64,000 nt of DNA, from the NCBI GenBank assembly GCA_001917815.1, contig MNES01000063.1:23696-87695 (forward strand), read 5' to 3'. Positions 6,677-8,884 of the stretch are shown in pieces. Both the position numbers and the translations under genes were made by a program. The stretch's first letter is position 1; each line of letters opens with the position of its first letter. This DNA comes from Chloroflexi bacterium 13_1_40CM_65_17 (GTDB taxonomy: Bacteria > Chloroflexota > Dormibacteria > Dormibacterales > Dormibacteraceae). Under the pieces are notes generated by a model. That model did not search any database, was not told the origin of the DNA, and worked only from the letters and a program-made list of their open reading frames with translations.

Positions 6677-7444
6677 ATGGAGCTCGACGGTAGAGTCGCG
6701 ATCGTCACCGGCGGGGGCACCGGCATCGGCCGCGCGGTCTGCGTTCGGCTCGCGAAGGCCGGCGCCGCGGGCGTGGTGGTTAACTACTCGCGCTCCGAAG
6801 ACGACGCGACTACGACCGCGCGCGAGCTCGAGTCGCTGGGCGCCACTGCCACCGCGCACCGGGCCGATGTCTCGGACGAATCTCAGGTCGTGGCGATGAT
6901 CGGCGAGGCGGTGAAGCGGTTCGGACGCCTCGACGTCCTGATCAACAATGCCGGCACGACGCAGTTCATCCCGCATTCCAACCTCGAAGCGCTGACCGAT
7001 GAGGTCTGGAACGAGATCCTCAGCGTCAATCTCAAGGGCACCTTCTTCTGCTGCCGCGCGGCGGCGCCCGAGCTGCGCAAGGTGAAGGGAGCGATCGTCA
7101 ACGTCGCGTCCGTCGCCGGACACCGGGCGGCCGGATCGTCGATCGTATACGCCGTCTCGAAGGCGGGCGTGCTGCAGCTGACCCGGGCGCTCGCGCTTGC
7201 GCTTGCTCCGGACGTTCGCGTCAACTCTGTCTCGCCGGGACTGGTGTCCAGCCGCTGGTTCAGCAAGCGGTTCGGCGACGAAGCCGCGAGCGCGCTCGAA
7301 TCCTCGACTGCCGAAAACACGCCGCTGCGAGCGATTCCGACGCCTGACCATGTCGCGCAAGCGGTGATGGCATTCGTCGAAAACGACCTCGTCACCGGCC
7401 AGGATCTGGTCGTCGACGGCGGTCGGATGGTGGAATACGTCTAG
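6677..7444 (+). CDS. SDR-family oxidoreductase (FabG-like)
   Basis: A 255-aa classical short-chain dehydrogenase/reductase. Seen: the cofactor motif TGGGTGIG, the NNAG motif (VLINNAGTT), the catalytic Ser-Tyr-Lys in NVASVAGH and YAVSK, and the PG motif after beta-6 (SVSPGLVSS). Length is typical. Relatives include 3-oxoacyl-ACP reductases and many alcohol or sugar dehydrogenases; the substrate cannot be assigned. It stands alone: divergent from the GlcG-like gene and followed by a 234-base non-coding gap. No Shine-Dalgarno is visible before the ATG. Confidence 0.9.
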   Translation: MELDGRVAIVTGGGTGIGRAVCVRLAKAGAAGVVVNYSRSEDDATTTARELESLGATATAHRADVSDESQVVAMIGEAVKRFGRLDVLINNAGTTQFIPHSNLEALTDEVWNEILSVNLKGTFFCCRAAAPELRKVKGAIVNVASVAGHRAAGSSIVYAVSKAGVLQLTRALALALAPDVRVNSVSPGLVSSRWFSKRFGDEAASALESSTAENTPLRAIPTPDHVAQAVMAFVENDLVTGQDLVVDGGRMVEYV

Positions 7445-7503
7445 TCCACAGCCCCGCGCCGAAGGCTACCTATGGTGGCCTGGCGGCGAACTGACTTTCG
7501 GGC

Positions 7504-7532
7504 TTGCGCTCAACTCGGACCGCATCTACTGT
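7504..7532 (+). promoter_or_regulatory. Sigma70-like promoter for a small RNA
   Basis: TTGCGC (7504-7509), a 17-nt spacer and TACTGT (7527-7532). The predicted start, about 7539-7540, coincides with the first base of the long hairpin that follows, which is why I think the pair is real. Confidence 0.4.
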
Positions 7533-7538
7533 TTGCAA

Positions 7539-7629
7539 CGGCCCCGAGGGAAACGTTCGAAAGGGCAGGAACAGGCCGCAAGGCAGGTACCGGCCCTCGA
7601 GAGGCGATCCGTCGGGGTCATTTCTTTTT
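7539..7629 (+). ncRNA. Candidate small RNA, long imperfect hairpin with U-tract
   Basis: Bases 7540-7619 can fold end to end into one imperfect hairpin with 38-nt arms. The base stem is 8 bp (GGCCCCGA with TCGGGGTC, one G-U), then short stems 7549-7551/7608-7610, 7554-7558/7601-7606, 7563-7566/7593-7596, 7568-7569/7590-7591 and 7571-7572/7587-7588, then GCC-GCAA-GGC at the tip (tetraloop 7578-7581). TTTCTTTTT follows at 7621-7629 as a terminator tract, and a promoter lies exactly upstream. Size and shape match bacterial SRP RNA, and the tip partly matches it, but the conserved AGCA on the 3' side and the GGAA tetraloop are missing. So this is either a divergent SRP-like RNA or an unrelated sRNA. 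The rest of the gap (7630-7664) holds a small CCGGC/GCCGG stem-loop. Confidence 0.4.
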
Positions 7630-7664
7630 CCGGCTAACTGCAAGCCGGCTGCCGGCACCGCCGT

Positions 7665-7670
7665 TACCCT
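7665..7670 (+). promoter_or_regulatory. -10-like TACCCT, leaderless start
   Basis: TACCCT followed by 8 nt and the ATG of the glycosyltransferase. No Shine-Dalgarno. Supports the start at 7679 over in-frame upstream starts. Confidence 0.4.
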
Positions 7671-7678
7671 CTAGCGCA

Positions 7679-8884
7679 ATGAAAGTCGCGCGCCGTCCTT
7701 CGGCCACGGCGCACCAGGCGCCGGCGGCGGTCGAGGTCTCGATCGTGATGCCCTGCCTCAACGAGATCGAGACGCTCGCCGTGTGCATCGCCAAGGCTCG
7801 CCAGGCCATCGAGAAGGGCGGCTATTCCGCTGAGATCATCGTCGCCGACAACGGAAGCAGCGACGGCTCCCAGCTCGTGGCACGGAAGCTCGGCGTCAGG
7901 GTTGTCGACGTCTCGAGAAAGGGGTATGGGAGCGCCCTCATCGGGGGCATCGACTCGGCGCAAGGCAAGTACGTGGTGATGGGCGACGCCGATGCGAGCT
8001 ATGACTTCGCCGCCATCGACCCCTTCATCGCCAAGCTGCGCGAGGGCTACGACCTCGTGGTGGGTAATCGATTCATGGGGGGTATAGAGCCCGGCGCCAT
8101 GCCGTGGTCGCACCGATGGGTCGGCAACCCAGGCCTCACGCGCATCAGCCGCATCTTCTTTCACGCCCCTGTCGGCGACACCCACTGCGGGCTGCGGGCG
8201 TTCACAAGGGACGCCTACAAACGGATGCGGCTGCGCTCCAGCGGCATGGAGTTTGCCAGCGAGATGGTTATCAAAGCGTCGTTGAAGGAAATGCGAATTA
8301 CCGAGGTGCCCGTGACACTTCATCCCGATGGGCGTTCGAGGCCGCCACACCTGCGCACATGGCGAGATGGCTGGCGCCACTTACGTTTCATGCTTCTGTT
8401 CAGCCCGCGATGGCTGTTCCTGTATCCGGGGATTGCGCTTTTCGGCTTGGGCCTGGTGGTGGGGGCAGCGCTCGAGACCGGACCCAAAGCGATCGGCCCT
8501 TTCGGCTTTGACATCCATACGCTGCTGCTCGCGGGCTTCTGCTGCCTGATCGGTTACCAGCTGATCGTGTTCGCGGTCTTCACGAAGGTGTTCGCGATGC
8601 GCGAGGGCTTCCATCCCCCAAACCGAGCCTATTCCGAGATGTTCCGTTACGTGAAGCTGGAAACCGGGCTCGCACTAGGGGCGCTGATGTTCGTGCTCGG
8701 GGTGGCCGGCACGGTCCTTGCGGTGCTCAGCTGGGGGGCGGTCGGGTTCGGCGCCCTCGATCCCCGACTCACGATGCGTGAGATCATCCCCGCCGCGGTG
8801 CTGCTGACCCTTGGCGTGCAGACGATTTTCGCGAGCTTCTTCCTCAGCATCCTCGGCATCGATAGCGAAACTGATCCGTCCTGA
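7679..8884 (+). CDS. Family 2 glycosyltransferase with C-terminal TM helices
   Basis: A 401-aa membrane-anchored GT-A fold transferase like dolichyl/polyprenyl-phosphate sugar transferases. Seen: VSIVMPCLNE at the start of the domain, VADNGSSDGS, and the nucleotide-metal motif GDADASYD. After the catalytic domain, from residue ~235, there are four hydrophobic segments (LFLYPGIALFGLGLVVG, LLLAGFCCLIGYQL and two more). Such enzymes charge a polyprenyl phosphate with a sugar for use outside the membrane. It opens a plus-strand operon with a GT-C-like protein, an epimerase, a GT4 and two methyltransferases, so it probably supplies a lipid-linked sugar for envelope glycan decoration. Confidence 0.88.
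   Translation: MKVARRPSATAHQAPAAVEVSIVMPCLNEIETLAVCIAKARQAIEKGGYSAEIIVADNGSSDGSQLVARKLGVRVVDVSRKGYGSALIGGIDSAQGKYVVMGDADASYDFAAIDPFIAKLREGYDLVVGNRFMGGIEPGAMPWSHRWVGNPGLTRISRIFFHAPVGDTHCGLRAFTRDAYKRMRLRSSGMEFASEMVIKASLKEMRITEVPVTLHPDGRSRPPHLRTWRDGWRHLRFMLLFSPRWLFLYPGIALFGLGLVVGAALETGPKAIGPFGFDIHTLLLAGFCCLIGYQLIVFAVFTKVFAMREGFHPPNRAYSEMFRYVKLETGLALGALMFVLGVAGTVLAVLSWGAVGFGALDPRLTMREIIPAAVLLTLGVQTIFASFFLSILGIDSETDPS

Follow-up and report, generated by a model that had tools for sequence, protein, structure and literature searches.

The intergenic space between an SDR gene (ending at 7444) and a GT2 glycosyltransferase gene (starting at 7679) of the window, i.e. the whole stretch of 64,000 nucleotides analysed here, contains a bacterial small RNA gene. 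Comparison of related genomes shows a conserved structure, strand and promoter-terminator frame, as well as sister copies and synteny and, judged by sequence matches, the RNA is specific to one Ca. Dormibacteria family, in which it occurs as a set of sister copies. The explanation that we favour, to which we give an even chance, is a stand-alone gene for a structured RNA of approximately 85–90 nt, representing the family-wide syntenic copy of the sister set and having its own promoter and terminator, whose product would act in trans, with a protein as its most likely binding partner.

No prior description of this RNA family was found in Rfam 15 or in the literature searched, and the literature search yielded no paper on small RNAs of Dormibacteria. 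These are soil bacteria known mostly from metagenomes. A family-wide RNA that has 1–4 sister genes, shows deep covariation and carries a conserved control region provides an entry point to RNA regulation without detectable Hfq, and for Rfam it is a candidate family whose alignment and model are at hand.

Structure and covariation of the RNA

A preliminary description of this DNA, made from the letters alone, had proposed a promoter followed by an 80-nt hairpin and a U-tract; direct reading confirmed all of its coordinates (Table 1). The hairpin occupies exactly positions 7540–7619. Its two arms of 38 nt (7540–7577 and 7582–7619) are joined by the loop GCAA (7578–7581), and at its base there is a stem of 8 bp (7540–7547/7612–7619). 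The predicted folding energy is −47.2 kcal/mol, compared with −30.5 kcal/mol for shuffled sequences (z = −5.2), and none of 200 shuffles was as stable. The 3' arm is followed by a single A and then by the U-tract; both the hairpin and the U-tract of the preliminary description are thus present, and a T-tract is conserved among the copies (mean of 60% T in the 12 nt past the stem versus 18% upstream).

Table 1. Features of the small RNA gene and its control region in the window.
Feature	Position	Strand	Basis or conservation
Upstream conserved hexamer GGCTAC of window-type promoters	7464..7469	+	In most window-type copies, approximately 71–76 bp before the RNA
Imperfect palindrome GTGGCCTGGCGGC (family form GTRGCC-W-GGCKRC)	7475..7487	+	Centred at −59 in the window
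Conserved element GAACTGACTTTCGG, from palindrome to −35	7488..7501	+	Conserved among window-type copies
−35 element TTGCGC	7504..7509	+	TTGC conserved among window-type copies
−10 element TACTGT	7527..7532	+	TAnnnT at −13 in 59/77 copies
Small RNA (80-nt hairpin 7540–7619 and U-tract)	7540..7629	+	Covariance model, fold, covariation
Basal helix, 5' side, GGCCCCGAGGGAAACGU	7540..7556	+	Helix 1; 98.6% of cells paired, mean identity 96%
Apical stem-loop, GCAA tetraloop 7578–7581	7574..7585	+	Loop identity 97%; compensatory CG-UA in stem
Basal helix, 3' side, GCGAUCCGUCGGGGUC	7604..7619	+	Structure alignment
U-tract TTTCTTTTT	7621..7629	+	With the basal stem, predicted intrinsic terminator

An alignment of 63 distinct copies (96 columns) was used to examine the structure. 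In a model of 29 base pairs, 89.6% of the cells are paired and 17 of the pairs show two-sided changes, values reached by none of 500 shuffles; the covariation in related genomes that had been proposed as a check is therefore strong. Sliding the 3' partners by one column reduced pairing to 40–52% (30–52% over all slid registers), although this control is tilted in favour of the 29-pair structure, which was adjusted by eye from the same sequences. RNAalifold alone gave 21 pairs, 11 of them with two-sided changes. The alignment contains 216 G-U cells versus 18 A-C cells, which identifies the plus strand as the RNA.

The basal helix and the GCAA loop are nearly fixed (Table 1). The middle helix has an identity of just 71%, yet 77% of its pairs are kept, and two conserved junction segments (alignment positions 18–22 and 66–71) are in part unpaired. 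In short forms (L045, 62 nt to the end of the stem, and L134) part of the middle is gone and both ends are kept. The divergent sisters (L129–L131, L133) retain a GGCCCCGA-type start, a GCCGCAAGGC-type tip and the GGGGTCA end; some of them (L129) have lost the internal loops of the basal helix, which weakens the claim that these loops are a binding site. A coding peptide is disfavoured by 2-nt indels, by the 62-nt short form and by the lack of an ATG in 49 of 64 copies.

Distribution in Dormibacteria

The covariance model R1 matched positions 7540–7628 of the window with 105 bits (E = 1.8e-24), the window copy itself being part of the model's alignment. At E ≤ 0.001, covariance model searches detected the RNA in 37 of the 42 genomes of the family, in 1–4 copies each, whereas the remaining 68 genomes of the class had no match; matches in a phylum sample of 301 genomes were confined to the same family. 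A more permissive search of 13 genomes lacking a match yielded weak signals only (27.9 bits in G016, 23.7 in G036, and 23.9 in G040, which belongs to another family). DNA searches of 61 genomes located the element throughout the window's taxonomic family, often with weaker extra copies in the same genome. All 42 records obtained by a pattern scan of a species-genome collection are labelled Ca. Dormibacterota/Dormiibacterota or Chloroflexi MAGs.

Several tandem pairs occur in which approximately 190–260 bp separate the two RNAs and each RNA has a promoter element of its own (L129, 4958–5232; L130, 480–756; L147, 6027–6310; L045, 3014–3357).

Promoter and upstream control region

The −35 and −10 elements are separated by 17 bp in the window, and the spacer sequence varies among the copies. 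The −10 hexamer begins exactly 13 nt before the hairpin in the copies counted in Table 1. A strict scan with the E. coli consensus did not call this promoter, and its support is comparative: the letters of the proposed TTGCGC-17-TACTGT are present, and it is the conserved −10 distance, not the consensus scan, that bears the proposal out. Judged by conservation, the RNA has both its own promoter at a fixed distance and its own intrinsic terminator which, together with a conserved structure showing compensatory changes, are the marks of a stand-alone sRNA gene.

Upstream of the promoter there is a 13-bp near-palindrome, whose centre is at −54 to −61 in the majority of copies; it is perfect (GTAGCCAGGCTAC) in the second own copy of the RNA. 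As such a position is a usual one for an activator, the near-palindrome is probably an activator-like site. The 13-mer alone is not rarer than chance within the window; the 24-mer 7478–7501, in which the palindrome runs into GAACTGACTTTCGG, is unique there at 3 mismatches (expected 0.00). A genome-wide operator was rejected, since the 13-mer at ≤1 mismatch is no commoner than its control in the own genome. Other palindrome sites in this genome, among the matches listed and judged by inspection, do not have the longer conserved element. Taken together, these two results suggest that the regulator is dedicated or that the full site is longer. In G005 (L155) a duplicated sister-RNA control region (GTAGCCAGGCTACGGACACAAG...; palindrome at 647–659 of G005:C71) has no RNA behind it.

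Genomic context of the copies

In most of the family the window copy is found in one conserved gene order, epimerase-ThpR-HbpS-[SDR]-RNA-GT2. The SDR gene is variably present and the RNA stays. At the window locus approximately 50 nt separate the RNA from GT2, which lies downstream on the same strand and is the next gene in most of the family; it was not found downstream at the window-type loci L022, L028, L038 and L056. In the five genomes of the family that have no RNA match, a search for GT2 had no hit at E 1e-60. The GT2 gene itself may be leaderless, as a TTACCC-type −10 lies approximately 10 nt before its ATG (window 7660–7681), with a similar arrangement in many relatives.

Gene calls at the sister loci were made by a simple script, with a Pfam check for representatives only. 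By these calls, a second group of copies lies beside DnaE2-like genes (L033, L035, L036, L042, L050, L140); where the contig is long enough, these copies have ImuB-like genes on their other side, and the RNA is on the strand opposite to both. A third group adjoins SnoaL and HTH genes, and a fourth, often in tandem, a methyltransferase gene. These differing neighbourhoods argue against a leader and against dependence of the RNA on any single neighbour. The near-palindrome may be a shared control site in L033, L035 and L140, where it lies in the approximately 80 bp between the RNA start and the probable start codon of DnaE2.

Possible mode of action

According to the favoured explanation, the RNA would be transcribed from its own promoter, probably with a shared activator bound to the near-palindrome approximately 59 bp upstream, and the transcript would end at its own basal stem and U-tract. 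It would act in trans, most likely by protein binding, as a scaffold or a decoy, using its two fixed parts, the basal helix and the C-GCAA-G tip, for contact; the middle helix, being variable, would serve as a spacer, and the sister copies may provide dose or different inputs to one output. Fixed ends with a freer, still paired middle are a pattern seen in protein-binding RNAs, and the combination of a fixed base and loop with a variable middle helix in the alignment suggests a protein-binding mode more than an antisense one. However, stability and termination alone may explain the conservation of GNRA loops and strong basal stems. The distribution of CsrA, of all decoy targets the best known, also speaks against protein binding: the own genome (84% complete) gave no CsrA match and neither did 20 of the 21 genomes searched, so a CsrB-type decoy was rejected. 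Among the genomes searched, the only family member with a csrA gene is G007 (G007:C64:17231-17386, 67 bits).

Base pairing of the same RNA with target mRNAs, as an antisense-type sibling sRNA working without Hfq or with another chaperone, remains a serious rival, which we regard as quite possible. Pairing with mRNAs has been described for many bacterial sibling sRNAs, and the conserved, partly unpaired junction segments could be read in this way; on the other hand, almost the entire RNA is paired, and a clear conserved single-stranded seed is absent, the U-tract excepted. Hfq (PF17209) was found in none of the 21 genomes searched, while the controls matched, which argues against this rival and led us to reject an Hfq-dependent sRNA. 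A cis-acting leader or attenuator, in which the hairpin would be a regulated terminator just before the GT2 start codon, agrees with the position of GT2 in most of the family. We consider it unlikely, since sister copies occur that are not directly followed by a gene on the same strand (e.g. those convergent with imuB), GT2 was not found downstream at the four loci named above, and no competing antiterminator form came up in an unsystematic inspection; a same-strand regulated gene is therefore not present behind the element in all copies. Still less credence is given to a dispersed repeat or mobile element (MITE- or REP-like) instead of a gene. Several copies per genome in unrelated places, some in tandem (L029, L045, L129, L130), would suit such an element, but their number is low, orthologous sites are kept across genera, there are compensatory changes, and the promoter and terminator are kept with the RNA. 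Moreover, nothing similar was present in phage and plasmid collections, and the pattern scan gave no record in viral contigs, so an origin from any of these was rejected.

A more specific version of the protein-binding explanation is speculative and, in our judgement, rather improbable. It holds that the RNA is Hfq-free, lineage-specific and protein-binding, and that its sisters would be co-activated by one dedicated regulator which may serve the divergent promoter of dnaE2 as well and would thereby connect the RNA with the DNA-damage (mutasome) response. The link through dnaE2 is a lead only, and the copy beside this gene makes the lead to stress testable.

Comparison with known RNA families

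The preliminary description had left two alternatives, a divergent SRP RNA or a new stable RNA. With the small bacterial SRP RNA (RF00169; approximately 80–100 nt) the RNA shares its size, a single long hairpin and a GNRA-type tip (GCC-GCAA-GGC). The absence of the AGCA and GGAA elements, reported earlier for the window copy, holds throughout: the tip is GCAA in nearly all copies and the core motif GGAAGGAAGCAG occurs in none (a GGAA-type tip with the AGCA/AGG symmetric loop is absent). RF00169 had no match in the window at the gathering score (40 bits), and none in 7440–7720 up to E 10. The canonical SRP RNA of the own genome was identified on another contig (G000:C79:3481-3580, RF00169, 66.8 bits, one copy), where its core CCGGAAGGAAGCAG lies on the minus strand of the sequence examined, and SRP RNA is present in 34 of the 37 relatives' genomes searched. 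As the RNA described here is, in addition, multicopy and restricted to one family, the SRP alternative is refuted and we give it hardly any weight. Two conditions had been named that would count against the original proposal: a lack of sequence or covariation support in relatives, which was not the case, and a canonical SRP RNA combined with no expression from this locus, of which the first part was found. The alternative of a new stable RNA stands, backed by conservation and covariation.

The whole-Rfam check that had also been suggested revealed no family at the locus at gathering score, and only chance matches at E up to 10. The best-scoring name, Xoo2 sRNA (RF02241), reached 13 bits versus a cut-off of 45 (E = 3.6), a chance match. 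The divergent sister copies had no convincing relative in Rfam either. 6S RNA (RF00013; approximately 160–190 nt) is likewise a long conserved hairpin and works by protein binding, but the RNA described here is half its size and without the large central bubble; as there was also no RF00013 match in the window, this assignment was rejected. Separate 6S-like matches, below the cut-off, occur in some of the same genomes. Sibling sRNAs (e.g. review PMC4211561; CsrB duplicates, PMC6262261) resemble this RNA in having at least two related stand-alone sRNA genes per genome; the present RNA differs from them in being a very rigid hairpin with no seed identified, no Hfq found and CsrA nearly always absent.

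Approximately 1.2 kb from the second own copy of the RNA, on the minus strand of L032 (1719–1797), there is a sub-threshold match to the anti-hemB sRNA (RF02837; 30.6 bits, cut-off 49.5, E = 0.003).
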